DNA from: a virus | Direction: 5' to 3' (one strand) | Length of the DNA stretch: 42,373 nucleotides | IMG/VR virus record: IMGVR_UViG_3300020347_000008 | Span: 1-42,373 of that record | Shown here: positions 28,875 to 35,281 of the stretch, piece by piece | How positions within the stretch are numbered: position 1 is the stretch's first letter | Layout: each line of letters begins with the position of its first letter | Notes under the pieces: generated by a model | The model's input: the letters and a program-made list of their open reading frames with translations, nothing else | Database searches by the model: none | Told to the model about the DNA's origin: nothing | Made by a program: the position numbers and the translations under genes

Positions 28875-29279
28875 TTAAATTAGTCCCTTCATTGTTGGTG
28901 GTTTATAGTTTGGGCCTTTAATTACTTTGCCATCTTCACGTAGCATGGGTTTACCATCTACTAATTTAGTCATGTTGGATTGATGAACACGCACAAACGC
29001 TGGTTGTATTGGTATACCGAACGTGACCGCAAAGCCACTAACGACATACATTATATCTGCAAGTTCTTTAACCATGTTCTCAAGTTGTTCGATGTTTGGC
29101 TCTTTTGATTTTATTAATTGATAACTAATAGCACCAACTTCCGCCTCAAGTTCACGAACTTCTTCTTTAATTAAGTCCATACGTAATTGCAAAAGATCAA
29201 CATTTAATTCAGCATTCATTGGTTGACCCATCGCCTTTTGGAAATGGGTCACATACGTTTCTCTAATGTTACTACTCAT
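28875..29279 (-). CDS. MazG/HisE-like nucleotide pyrophosphohydrolase
   Basis: The 134-residue protein has the all-alpha NTP-pyrophosphohydrolase pattern EEVRE (E39, E40, E43) and KELAD (E72, D75), which bind metal. The phage-type end VHQSNMTKLVDGKP...DGKVIKGPNYKPP follows. Such proteins hydrolyse nucleoside triphosphates or related nucleotides. A role in nucleotide-pool or alarmone control is proposed for phage MazG but is not shown here. It starts in a TGATG overlap with the DUF3310 gene and abuts the reductase gene, making a nucleotide-metabolism operon. Confidence 0.85.
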   Translation of the reverse strand: MSSNIRETYVTHFQKAMGQPMNAELNVDLLQLRMDLIKEEVRELEAEVGAISYQLIKSKEPNIEQLENMVKELADIMYVVSGFAVTFGIPIQPAFVRVHQSNMTKLVDGKPMLREDGKVIKGPNYKPPTMKGLI

Positions 29280-30276
29280 CACTCAATGTCTCCGTGATTG
29301 TCCATTTCTTTTCGCTCGACGATGGTGATGAGTCGGTCGAGATACCATCTTGCTTTGTTGAGATCGTGGATGGCTTTACCTTTACCTCTGTATCTACTGA
29401 CGTACTTGATGATGTTTGCGAATTGGACGGCTTCGTCGCCTTCGAGCGTTTCCGCGACGGCTTCGATGTAGTCGATAGTTTGAATTCCGTCTCTGAATTG
29501 GTAGTGTTTAGGGCTGACGGTTGAATCCATTCTGCCTTCAAACTGTTCGGATGCCATAGTCTTACTTCTCCATTGTTAAAATTATAATCGTCGTATCGTA
29601 AAATACGAGCAAGTCGTATCATAGTGATGGCATACTCTTGAGTTAAACCATTGTCGATGAACGCTTGTATTACATTCATCCACATTTGTTTAGGTGATGC
29701 AGCGGCGCTAGTTATCTTATGTGCGCCAACTTTACCAACTCCTGGAATACCTTTGTAGTTGTCGGTTGAATCCCCCATGATAGATTGTTCTAGCATAGTG
29801 ATGTCCGCTTGTGCTTTATTAATCTTCACCCAACGTTTCATCTTATCAGGGTTGAAGAATTTTACCGGCAAAGTAAACATGTCTTTATCAATAGAGATTA
29901 CCACGGGATCAGGAATGTCGGGGTGTGTTCCATAGATGCCTAACAAATCGTCAGCTTCTAAGCCTGACAAAACTGACCATGAATATTGCTTTTGTAAATA
30001 GTCACGTACTGACGCTAAGAACATCGGACGTTTACTTTCTTTCCGATTCATTTTGTACTCAGGGTAAATGTCGTGACGAAAATATTTACGTTTGATATCG
30101 GAGAAACACAAAATAGTTTTGTTTGGTTTTACCGGACGTATCCATTCTCTTAGCATAACTTCCGCGTATGCAAACGCGTCTTCTTCTTTCGCTGGAACTA
30201 GGTCATCACCTGAATCCTCTACCGCAATAGCTGATTTAAAAGCGATGATGTCAGCATCCACAAGTGCCGTCGTCAT
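29272..30276 (-). CDS. 5'-3' exonuclease, T7 gp6-like (FEN family), with overprinted tail
   Basis: A 334-residue protein that would degrade DNA from 5' ends, for primer removal and host DNA recycling. LVDADIIAF (residues 4-12), GLEADDLLG (about 106), SIDKDMF, GDSTDN (about 168) and GIPGVGKVGA are the metal and helix-hairpin-helix motifs of the FEN family. The conserved core ends near RLARILRYDDY and LWHP (about 240). The last ~93 residues, a Ser/Thr/Lys-rich tail, are read from the same DNA as the DUF3310 gene in another frame. The start overlaps the previous stop (ATGA). Confidence 0.9.
   Translation of the reverse strand: MTTALVDADIIAFKSAIAVEDSGDDLVPAKEEDAFAYAEVMLREWIRPVKPNKTILCFSDIKRKYFRHDIYPEYKMNRKESKRPMFLASVRDYLQKQYSWSVLSGLEADDLLGIYGTHPDIPDPVVISIDKDMFTLPVKFFNPDKMKRWVKINKAQADITMLEQSIMGDSTDNYKGIPGVGKVGAHKITSAAASPKQMWMNVIQAFIDNGLTQEYAITMIRLARILRYDDYNFNNGEVRLWHPNSLKAEWIQPSALNTTNSETEFKLSTTSKPSRKRSKATKPSNSQTSSSTSVDTEVKVKPSTISTKQDGISTDSSPSSSEKKWTITETLSDE
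29279..29557 (-). CDS. DUF3310 family protein, nested in the exonuclease gene
   Basis: A 92-residue protein with the DUF3310 signature: IQTIDYIEA near residue 24, QFANIIKYVSRYRGKGKAIHDLNKARWYLDRL near 45-76. The family is widespread in phages and often lies among nucleotide-metabolism genes; its biochemical role is not settled. The start ATG 29557 follows GGAGAAGTAAGACT. All but its last codons lie inside the exonuclease reading frame, and it ends in TGATG with the MazG-like gene. Its clear family match shows this frame is truly used. Confidence 0.88.
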   Translation of the reverse strand: MASEQFEGRMDSTVSPKHYQFRDGIQTIDYIEAVAETLEGDEAVQFANIIKYVSRYRGKGKAIHDLNKARWYLDRLITIVERKEMDNHGDIE

Positions 30277-30481: not shown

Positions 30482-32221
30482 CTAATGTGTCTCGCGCCAG
30501 CTATTGCCAATGTCATATGAGCCTGACGTCGGACAATTAAGTCCTAGTTGCTCACCGGCAAGTTTAATAGCTTTCGCAAATAGTTTTCCAATTGATTCTG
30601 CATGTTGTGGTCTACAAGATAGCTGAACTTCATCATGGACATTGGCACAATAATTAAATGTGACCGGTAGTTCTTCAACCACATGTCCATCACGCTCACA
30701 TAAATCATAATGAAATATTACGAGAGCCTTTTTCATTAAGATACTTCCCGCACTTTGCAATAAAAAATTTAAAGCAGAATGTGGACTAAGTATTTTAATA
30801 TGACGTCCATCAATGCCTAGAATGTGACCACGTTCGGCACGTTTCTTTATTAGATCAGACAACTTTCCCAGACCGATAATACCTTCATTCATTCTTCGAC
30901 GAATTTCTTTACCGTTCTTACAAGGCGCGTTTGCCTCTCGCATTATCTGTGAAAGTTTACGATCACTTGCGCCGTACAAGTAAGCGTACGTTGCACGTTT
31001 TACCACGTCACGATCATCAAGTTCAATTAACTTACCGGTACGTGAGTGAACGTCTGTGCCATCTTCTTTCTTTCCTTCGAGCAGCGCAGTAGTATATGCA
31101 CCATCATCAAAGTGTCCTAAGTAATGTGCCAACATTCGTAACTCTAAAGCATCGGCATCAATACCAACAAGCTTGTCCCCAACGTCAGGTTTCCACACTT
31201 CGCGCATTCGTAAATCTCTCTTACTAATCTGCGCCATGTTTGGCCCAAAGTGACTACACCGATTTGTTGTAGTACCAATTGGGTTGACTGACCCATGCAC
31301 ATACCCCGCATCTGTCACACACTTTAACCAACCTGATGCACCTTCACTAATTTGCGAAAGTTGTTTCTGATATAAAAAATATTCAGCAAGTAGTTGTGCT
31401 TCCGGATACTTCAATTGTTTAAGAACCGTCTCATCAATTTGAGGTGAACCAGCGGGGGTGAATTTAGTGGGTGTCCATTCGTACATAGTTATCAAACGTT
31501 CAGCAATTTGTTTACGACTTCCCGGATTAAAGATTTCAATCTTATCCTTGAGACGCTTGCCGGTCTTCTCTGACACACGCTCGACAGTAATCGGTGGAAA
31601 GACTTCTTGTAATTGAACTTCAATGTCCGCCATCTTTTGGCGCATTTCTGAAGCCAACTCTTCACAAGCTGGAACATCTAACTTAAAGCCGTGTCGTTCT
31701 TGTATACCCATCACATAAGCAAAGTCACGCTCAAGGTTATACGAATTTAGAAGGTCTGCATCTTTACGTTCGGTTGTTAGAAAGTCATAGACTTTTATTG
31801 TAACCGCCACGTCAGTTGCACAATACTCACCCATTTCTTTTGTGAACGTTGACCAATCAGAGTAATCTCCTTTTGGAAATCCAAGACGCTCACCCCACTT
31901 TGCCAACCCATGTCCACCACGTTGCGGATGTTGAAGGCGTGAATAGATAAGTGTATCGACGATTTGTTCTCGACGTATATCTACATCAGGGTAAAGATAT
32001 TCAATTGCGGGGAAGTCAAACATCATGCCGTTGTGCATAATGATTTGATCGGCATCAGTTAGTCGATCAAGTCCTTCTTTAATGGAAGGATAGTTGGGCG
32101 CGTCAGCGTATACTATTATGTCAGTCGGACACGTCAAGTTCGCTATCGCTAAACAATGACATTTGGTCATTGGTGTCGAGAAGAGTCCGTCTGTCTCGAT
32201 GTCTGCGATTAGTGTCTTCAT
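30482..32221 (-). CDS. family A DNA polymerase, T7 gp5-like, compact form
   Basis: The 579-residue protein has a 3'-5' exonuclease domain (DIETDG with D7 and E9; HNGMMFDFPAI; YCATDVAVTIKVY) and a polymerase domain. The latter holds motif A GIDADALELRMLAHYL, motif B KRATYAYLYGASDRK and motif C NVHDEVQ. T7 gp5 has 704 residues. The segment between FPPI and FNPGSR, where T7 carries its roughly 70-residue thioredoxin-binding loop, is only about 20 residues long here. I use ATG 32221 after GAGGAATATTTTG. The first 101 bases overlap the HNH gene. Confidence 0.93.
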   Translation of the reverse strand: MKTLIADIETDGLFSTPMTKCHCLAIANLTCPTDIIVYADAPNYPSIKEGLDRLTDADQIIMHNGMMFDFPAIEYLYPDVDIRREQIVDTLIYSRLQHPQRGGHGLAKWGERLGFPKGDYSDWSTFTKEMGEYCATDVAVTIKVYDFLTTERKDADLLNSYNLERDFAYVMGIQERHGFKLDVPACEELASEMRQKMADIEVQLQEVFPPITVERVSEKTGKRLKDKIEIFNPGSRKQIAERLITMYEWTPTKFTPAGSPQIDETVLKQLKYPEAQLLAEYFLYQKQLSQISEGASGWLKCVTDAGYVHGSVNPIGTTTNRCSHFGPNMAQISKRDLRMREVWKPDVGDKLVGIDADALELRMLAHYLGHFDDGAYTTALLEGKKEDGTDVHSRTGKLIELDDRDVVKRATYAYLYGASDRKLSQIMREANAPCKNGKEIRRRMNEGIIGLGKLSDLIKKRAERGHILGIDGRHIKILSPHSALNFLLQSAGSILMKKALVIFHYDLCERDGHVVEELPVTFNYCANVHDEVQLSCRPQHAESIGKLFAKAIKLAGEQLGLNCPTSGSYDIGNSWRETH

Positions 32222-32510
32222 CAAAATATTCCTCATCTTGGCTTACATGAATGGTACGATGACAGTTAGAGCATAGGAGATCACACTTGTCGGCTTCCGC
32301 CTTTACGGCGTCCCAAGGATAATCTGTCATCGTGGATTGTCGCATTGCGAAAACTTTAGTCATCGGATTGCGGTGGTGAAAATCATAACACTCTTGTGTA
32401 AATGTTTGCTCACATTTTTTACACTTGTTTCCTTTAGCATCAATTAGTTCTTGCATTAGTTTCTTTCGTCGAGTCTGCCGCGTGTTATTATTTGCGGGTG
32501 TCCAAGTCAT
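32121..32510 (-). CDS. HNH endonuclease
   Basis: The 129-residue product has zinc-knuckle pairs C30/C33 and C80/C83 around the catalytic DFHHRNP (H45, H46) and the closing NCHRTIH (H84, H88). It would make DNA cuts. It starts in a TAATG overlap with the primase-helicase stop and its last 33 codons overlap the DNA polymerase start. Free-standing HNH genes are common mobile inserts in T7-like replication clusters, often as homing endonucleases; a packaging or resolution role is an alternative. The tight coupling suggests a long-settled resident. Confidence 0.9.
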   Translation of the reverse strand: MTWTPANNNTRQTRRKKLMQELIDAKGNKCKKCEQTFTQECYDFHHRNPMTKVFAMRQSTMTDYPWDAVKAEADKCDLLCSNCHRTIHVSQDEEYFDEDTNRRHRDRRTLLDTNDQMSLFSDSELDVSD

Positions 32511-34302: not shown

Positions 34303-34749
34303 TTATACCTCAATTGGTTTATAAGTTATTTGTATACCTTCCTCTTCTTCCGGAAGGGTGTAACGTTTCGTTACGTAGAGTGAGATCAGTTGATCATCAT
34401 CATTCCAAAAGTTACCATCAGTAGTCATAGAATCTAATGGGCCTTTAGCATAATTATCAACATCACCACGAGGGTAAAGTCGAGATACTGTCTTCGGTGG
34501 TTTCTTTAAAACCTCAATGACTGCGAATAAAGGCTTGTCTGTTTGAGTATTCTTATCAACAATGTTGTTCAGAATATCTTTAACGTCGCGCCTAAATCGT
34601 TCATATGTTTTACCGTAGTAAGTACCCCAACGAGTGACCCTTGGTCTTGAAGCCGGTACGGGATCAACCGATAAAAATAAAGTGATTGCTCCCGAACCCA
34701 ACAAAGATTTAATTTTCTTTGTTAAGTTAGATTGCGATATCAAAGTCAT
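34303..34749 (-). CDS. RusA-like Holliday junction resolvase
   Basis: A 148-residue protein with the RusA pattern: SVDPVPASRPRVTRWGTYY near residue 30, RGDVDNYAKGPLDSM near 105 with the catalytic aspartates, NDDDQLISLYVTKRY near 122. It would resolve branched replication DNA before packaging. In T7 this slot, after the SSB gene, is held by endonuclease I (gp3), an unrelated enzyme with the same job. Start ATG 34749 overlaps the SSB end by 23 bases in another frame. Confidence 0.85.
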   Translation of the reverse strand: MTLISQSNLTKKIKSLLGSGAITLFLSVDPVPASRPRVTRWGTYYGKTYERFRRDVKDILNNIVDKNTQTDKPLFAVIEVLKKPPKTVSRLYPRGDVDNYAKGPLDSMTTDGNFWNDDDQLISLYVTKRYTLPEEEEGIQITYKPIEV

Positions 34750-35281
34750 CGTCGTCCGTGTTGGTATCCTTGGCGACTGCTTCAATCTCGTCGAAGTCAG
34801 CGGTCGGACTACCCCCTACATTACGCTTTTCAAGTAACATAACGTTTCGCAATTGACATGCGACGCCTTTGTTACCACCAGCGTTATACGGAATTAACGC
34901 GAATGATGCTCGAATGATATCACCACTAGCTGGATAGTTCTCTTCAACTAGAGGCTTCTTAGATGTGTCGACAAATCCTGGTTGATACTTAGTCTTTGCG
35001 ACAAGTGTGAACTTACCGTGGAACTCTTCGTTCTTTGCTTCGTTTCCATCTTTGATTGGCGACTTAAACGAATCAGGGAACTCTTCGCCCTTGGCAATTT
35101 CTTTAATCATCTTGGATAATCCACCAAGATACTTTTTAGTATCCGGATCAGTTGGGTCAAACACAAGAGTTACCTTGTACTTACCATCACTATACTCTTG
35201 CCCTTCATCCGGACGTGCAAGCCATGCATACGCCGCGACTGCTGGGACGGATACTGTTACGGGGTGATTTTTTTTAGCCAT
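34727..35281 (-). CDS. single-stranded DNA-binding protein, T7 gp2.5-like
   Basis: The 184-residue protein has a KVTLVFDPTDPDTKKYL segment and a beta-rich OB-type core. It ends in a strongly acidic tail with an aromatic residue (TDDDDFDIAI), the mark of gp2.5 proteins that dock the polymerase and primase-helicase. It coats single-stranded DNA at the fork. Start after GAGGAAAGT. The 3' end carries the start of the RusA-like gene in a second frame. Confidence 0.88.
   Translation of the reverse strand: MAKKNHPVTVSVPAVAAYAWLARPDEGQEYSDGKYKVTLVFDPTDPDTKKYLGGLSKMIKEIAKGEEFPDSFKSPIKDGNEAKNEEFHGKFTLVAKTKYQPGFVDTSKKPLVEENYPASGDIIRASFALIPYNAGGNKGVACQLRNVMLLEKRNVGGSPTADFDEIEAVAKDTNTDDDDFDIAI

Follow-up and report, generated by a model that had tools for sequence, protein, structure and literature searches.

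Among T7-like phages, one lineage carries a gp6-like exonuclease whose reading frame continues through the whole or most of the small gene behind it, usually DUF3310, and this layout very probably arose by loss of the exonuclease stop codon, the overprinted tail being kept by selection acting on the third positions of DUF3310 codons. We describe it from IMG/VR record IMGVR_UViG_3300020347_000008, whose entire 42,373 nt we call the window and whose gene content is T7-like (RNA polymerase, primase/helicase, family A polymerase and major head protein). The features of the locus are the following.

29272 to 30276, minus strand: full open reading frame of the T7 gp6-like 5'-3' exonuclease (FEN family), 334 aa from an ATG; phrog_107, PF02739
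29548 to 30276, minus strand: exonuclease core up to LWHP, where T7 gp6 ends (LWRP); pLDDT mostly above 90
29275 to 29547, minus strand: exonuclease tail, 91 aa, polar, Ser/Thr 41%; residues 257-334 predicted to be disordered
29279 to 29557, minus strand: DUF3310 gene, 92 aa from an ATG, helical domain, PF11753; entirely within the exonuclease frame and read in another
29568 to 29571, minus strand: GGAG, Shine-Dalgarno-like, 10 nt ahead of the DUF3310 ATG
29272 to 29274, minus strand: exonuclease stop codon TAG, within the MazG-like gene
28875 to 29279, minus strand: MazG-like (PRA-PH) gene by Pfam, ATG at 29279-29277

DUF3310 starts 719 nt downstream of the exonuclease ATG, at an ATG made up of bases from the Leu-Trp codons of LWHP, and is read on the same strand in the +2 (= -1) frame relative to the exonuclease. 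Both its start and its stop (TGA, 29281-29279) lie inside the exonuclease frame, giving a nested overlap of 279 nt, and the exonuclease TAG follows just beyond, about 2 codons into the MazG-like gene; base 29279 is read in three frames, as part of the DUF3310 stop, of the MazG-like ATG and of an exonuclease codon. The first-pass annotation of this DNA had described dual coding of a complete small gene, with the exonuclease frame open for about 93 codons past a core ending where DUF3310 starts; the count is 91 codons beyond LWHP, the layout is as described, and the frame is kept in at least 22 distinct loci. A purine-rich, Shine-Dalgarno-like site precedes the overlapped gene in 22 of the 22 tailed loci listed. 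A programmed frameshift producing an exonuclease-DUF3310 fusion, judged by eye, is needless because DUF3310 has its own start and Shine-Dalgarno-like site. An antisense frame (29294-29524, plus strand) is also open across the overlap region.

All three genes are backed by Pfam and PHROGs. The exonuclease matches phrog_107 (E 4.9e-57) and PF02739 (47.8 bits, cut-off 34.3), its C-terminal SAM-fold domain scores 24.0 bits against PF01367 (cut-off 40), and a Foldseek search of the PDB with the core model returns T5 FEN, plastid exonuclease 1 and T4 RNase H. Nine acidic residues (D7, D9, E107, D109, D110, D130, D132, D169 and D172), which we take to be the catalytic active-site residues of the FEN family, are invariant in 17 of 17 aligned rows. 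DUF3310, a family often labelled nucleotide kinase in phage records, is present in the window as a full domain (PF11753, 62.1 bits, cut-off 24) with a compact, helical predicted structure; what sets the copies described here apart is that all or most of their coding sequence lies within another gene and that their third-base usage departs from that of their own genome.

In T7 the exonuclease ends precisely with LWRP, and its gene shares 13 nt with gene 6.3. In 10 of 12 inspected annotated phage records near a homologous exonuclease the overlap with the next gene is 13-47 nt, and in the other two there is none; in 70 loci with an adjacent, non-nested DUF3310 gene, the exonuclease mostly stops 13-25 nt past the DUF3310 start. 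A long exonuclease tail is absent from T7 and from the 12 inspected records. A small overlap at LWxP is therefore the rule among relatives and the long tail the exception: termination at LWxP is usual, though not defining, and the window exonuclease continues for 91 residues more. The first-pass annotation had held that a stop near 29540 in relatives would undo its reading; the more distant relatives do stop there, which leaves the dual coding standing and makes the tail, as the end of T7 gp6 at LWRP also indicates, the property of one lineage. Querying a phage collection with the window exonuclease gave 1856 records, none with a single place covering 80% of the query, and querying it with the exonuclease of another tailed locus (L024) gave 224 records with one place covering at least 80%, of which the two inspected both have a short exonuclease, so a cultured phage with the long tail may exist.

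The breadth of the lineage was surveyed by profile scans and one pipeline, which reduced 295 loci to 241 distinct ones (54 were removed because they duplicated another locus across the compared region or had no exonuclease match); 77 polymerase-like loci (L172-L248) fell outside the analysis. We scored an exonuclease as tailed when its frame was open for more than 100 nt into the DUF3310 domain. At least 134 of the 241 loci have DUF3310 within 1 kb, and at least 21 of these, the window included, are tailed, a proportion (at least 21/241) that is no natural frequency, since each scan took in up to 600 candidates and 80 loci, and the queries included tailed members, so that tailed loci are over-represented. 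The 134 comprise the 21 nested loci, 70 controls (adjacent, same frame, non-nested) and 43 that were left out for another frame, another distance or too short a stretch. A 22nd tailed locus, L103, has DUF6378 (PF19905) instead of most of DUF3310 and a 50-aa tail, extending the range of tail lengths from 66-98 aa in the DUF3310 cases to 50-98 aa overall; in one locus (L022) the frame is followed open only as far as the contig end. Nesting is complete in 8 of the 20 loci in which both ends are present, and the other 12 overlap most of the gene.

The tail frame has persisted across considerable divergence. Two IMG/VR contigs that are identical in this region (L001 and L002) differ from the window at 120 of 1005 bases and retain an open frame one codon longer, and across 17 tailed rows the exonucleases, tail included, are 35-92% identical to that of the window. 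The first-pass annotation had called the tail newly made; its presence in 22 distinct, deeply diverged loci shows it to be old, and the sequencing error that the annotation allowed for is contradicted by the same relatives. A 74-row tree of the exonuclease core, built without the near-copies L001, L322 and L324, requires three changes to account for 19 tailed rows, all of which fall in one 23-row group whose support is modest (80/88); a previous tree of 69 rows required two. Four rows of this group are untailed (L025, L036, L255 and L283), and in none does DUF3310 start inside LWxP. With the new frame confined to one lineage and the DUF3310 frame widespread, the distribution is that of an overprint. 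Four tailed loci (L024, L026, L253 and L256) begin DUF3310 at the same place with TTG rather than ATG. In L103 (3205-3522), DUF6378 takes the place of DUF3310 after about the first dozen codons and looks swapped in behind a shared gene start, and the exonuclease tail there keeps DIWMK before a basic Ser/Thr/Lys/Arg stretch across DUF6378. One tailed locus (L169) lies in the genome of Marivibrio halodurans, a cultured alphaproteobacterium (G003:C11:369415-370431). The same contig encodes, at a distance of about 6 kb, a major head protein with 61% identity to that of the window and, at about 29 kb, an integrase match, so the locus probably belongs to a T7-like prophage. A separate group of exonucleases (L167, L264-L266, L268, L273, L274, L276, L280, L281, L284, L287, L296-L298, L300, L301, L303, L304 and L310) has tails of 27-30 aa that are clear of DUF3310; their last residues form a conserved ETTVFGTRI-like peptide resembling a binding motif.

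The codons of the overlapped genes point to selection on the second frame. When the window DUF3310 was recoded synonymously with the codon usage of its genome, 4.6 stops were expected in the exonuclease frame and 0.18% of draws left it open, against 0.195% with local codon usage; across the 22 tailed loci the figure ranges from 0.013% to 19%. Third-base C makes up 45% of codons in the window DUF3310 against 7-22% in 31 other genes (z 8.4) and exceeds expectation in 22 of 22 tailed loci (z 2.0-8.3; pooled 1.75x), with third-base T pooled at 0.39x. Beyond the exonuclease stop the same overlapped genes give 0.74x for C and 1.09x for T (11 loci, 215 codons), and the 70 non-nested controls give 1.03x and 0.94x, with a mean z of 0.24 and a maximum of 2.79. 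T at the second base of a codon specifies Leu, Ile, Val, Phe or Met, C specifies Ser, Thr, Pro or Ala, and A or G may yield stops. As the third base of each DUF3310 codon is the second base of a tail codon, the preference for C over T fits selection for an open, polar tail.

Synonymous change is reduced in the overlap as well. Between the window and G001, third-position divergence in DUF3310 is 0.10, the lowest of 32 genes and well below the 0.31 and 0.34 of the flanking genes; two frames elsewhere in the window that partly overlap their neighbours (32121-32510 and 34303-34785, minus strand) are also low, at 0.17 each. Between the window and L001, codons for the same residue differ in 7 of 84 cases in DUF3310 versus 71 of 205 in the exonuclease core. 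In 27 tailed pairs, which like the control pairs share sequences and are non-independent, the ratio of synonymous change in the overlapped gene to that in the core is 0.24-0.74 (median 0.57), against a median of 1.01 in 642 control pairs; among the 329 control pairs with core change of 0.05-0.5, 13 have a ratio of 0.5 or less. Under drift at the synonymous rate of the core, the probability that the frame stays open is 0.12, 0.35, 0.43, 0.08, 0.03 and 0.006 in six pairs, and it is open in all six, so early stops have seemingly been removed by selection. The comparison of codon positions in both frames that the first-pass annotation had proposed thus favours selection on both, and from these substitution patterns both readings appear to be under selection. 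By codon usage, for which the older frame of an overlap is expected to lie closer to the genome (PMC3744397), both frames deviate and the tail frame is the closer in 9 of 22 loci, on a measure that differs from the one used there.

What is selected appears to be composition more than sequence. Compared with recodings that leave the frame open, real tails are depleted in hydrophobic residues (z -2.4 to -7.7) and enriched in Ser/Thr (z 1.7 to 7.4) in all 19 loci that could be estimated, the other 3 of the 22 yielding too few open draws. The first-pass description of the tail as Ser/Thr/Lys-rich and drawn from DUF3310 bases agrees with this (Ser/Thr 41% in the window); its description as basic does not survive, the window tail having 13 K/R and 11 D/E (net about +2, nearly neutral). 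Selection for a basic tail is ruled out by the 19 estimable loci, in which K/R is not raised over the output of the frame itself (z -2.6 to +2.0) and net charge shows no rise and mostly falls below what the frame gives (z -5.6 to +1.3). Position-specific codon conservation is only slightly higher in nested than in control genes (excess 0.079 versus 0.059 and 0.052 versus 0.020), which excludes strong sequence-specific conservation and means that the tail sequence, its first residues apart, is not clearly selected. Seven changes between the window and L001 before the diverged C-terminus are silent in DUF3310 and alter the tail, and these count against a selected tail, as does the variation in tail length.

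AlphaFold, run with a 17-row alignment, gives a confident core, a short strand at residues 249-251 and pLDDT below 50 across residues 257-334. All 15 clade-1 loci share a Trp early in the tail, even though the overlapped gene encodes Met, Val or Leu across it; where it encodes Val or Leu, the codon is xTG every time (P 0.06-0.50 each). A Trp also occurs in that stretch of L025 and L036, whose tails are short and which lack DUF3310 at this place, so a short ordered extension may predate the long disordered section.

The observed layout and its conservation, together with the bending of codons confined to the overlap, the lowered synonymous change and the hydrophobic depletion, suggest the following course of events. 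The ancestor would have had a T7 gp6-like exonuclease that stopped no more than a few codons from LWxP, and the gene after it (in many cases DUF3310) would have begun at the ATG contained in the Leu-Trp codons. One lineage of T7-like phages would then have lost that stop, and ribosomes finishing the exonuclease would continue through DUF3310 in the other frame, adding a tail of about 50-98 residues, with DUF3310 produced separately from its own start 10 nt after the Shine-Dalgarno-like site. Selection on the exonuclease product would then fall on DUF3310 third positions, where bases that give stops or hydrophobic residues would be avoided and C favoured over T, leaving the tail open, Ser/Thr-rich and disordered. 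The missing stop itself suggests that the tail is translated. Most likely, though we are less sure of this, it is retained for its usefulness, as a flexible, soluble extension behind a short Trp anchor that packs near the core; the benefit may be better solubility or contacts with DNA or replication partners. Overall we lean slightly towards a working tail over one that is simply benign.

The strongest competing account, which we rate at somewhat more than a one-in-three prospect, is that a single stop loss left an inert tail, selected only for solubility and lack of toxicity, so that third-base C and low hydrophobicity reflect avoidance of damage and not function. Because selection acts on composition and not on sequence, a benign tail would look much the same, and in E. 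coli random peptides do less harm when they are rich in small residues that promote disorder (PMC9210321). The ease with which such a tail could be lost argues the other way: in each locus 9-23 single silent changes in the overlapped gene would end the exonuclease early and untailed relatives are the rule, yet 18 of 18 tree rows of the group with a DUF3310 start inside LWxP still have the tail, and the early Trp is conserved in the tail frame. A more specific version of the working tail, in which it is a selected part of the exonuclease (Trp anchor plus disordered arm) for whose younger reading an older, widespread gene has been recoded, is one we advance tentatively and consider rather doubtful; the arm would perhaps contact DNA or the nucleotide-metabolism proteins of the overlapped genes (DUF3310, MazG-like). 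If true, a nuclease arm and a small protein would be genetically locked together, and the recoded older gene would be missed by codon-usage rules for dating overlaps.

Translational coupling, in which the long frame keeps the DUF3310 mRNA open or permits reinitiation at the next gene and the tail is a benign by-product, is unlikely. It would suit the window, where the exonuclease ends about 2 codons inside the MazG-like gene, and the 13 of 20 loci whose exonuclease stop and overlapped-gene end are less than 20 nt or so apart; in the other seven, however, the stop falls 26-125 nt before that end, and in L103 about 50 codons before the end of DUF6378. Foreign origin, recent recombination, codon adaptation or an RNA or DNA signal, with the open frame as a side effect of the bias, is very improbable. 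The codon usage of DUF3310 is an outlier in its genome and L103 has swapped its overlapped gene, but the bias is towards C and not G (third-base G 0.62x in overlapped codons) in 22 of 22 loci and is gone past the exonuclease stop within the same genes. In L103, DUF6378 is biased up to that stop (z +2.8) and not after it (z -2.6), and neither the 70 non-nested DUF3310 genes nor the window major head protein (third-base C 0.21) has the bias; on its restriction to the overlap and absence from controls we rejected codon adaptation and foreign origin. A chance open frame (P near 0.002 for the window and at most 0.19, in L169) or a sequencing error has next to no credibility, given relatives that keep the frame open in 22 distinct loci on many contigs, one of them in the M. 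halodurans genome.

The tailed phages are a mostly uncultured T7-like group. Long overlaps between genes on one strand tend to be viewed with suspicion, as possible artefacts of annotation. In this case a set with replication across loci (22 overlapped, 70 controls, and the same genes before and after the exonuclease stop) isolates the effect of selection on an overprinted frame, in which the third bases of the older gene are bent and the younger product is open and poor in hydrophobic residues. The set provides a natural experiment that bears on whether overprinting yields disordered extensions that work or that are simply tolerated, and M. halodurans is a cultured carrier.

Relative to T7 gene 6 and phrog_107, the tailed loci have a similar core, a position close to the DNA polymerase gene and a next gene starting within LWxP; they differ in running for 66-98 codons through that gene (50 in L103), whereas the overlap in T7 and the 12 annotated records is at most 47 nt. 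Nested overlaps and the disorder of overprinted products are well known in viruses (reviewed in PMC8227390). The titles and abstracts searched yielded no description of an exonuclease-DUF3310 overlap. As with gene E in D of phiX174, treated in the same review, a gene lies within a gene on the same strand and the newer product is disordered; in phiX174, however, the newer coding is a stand-alone gene, whereas here it lengthens an old enzyme at its C-terminus across a complete downstream gene that already existed, and the codons of the old gene are visibly bent. Prokaryotic same-strand overlaps formed by stop-codon loss have the same origin, a later stop in the adjacent gene being used, but the overlap described here is long (279 nt in the window), takes in an entire gene in 8 of the 20 loci with both ends present and recurs in deeply diverged phages.
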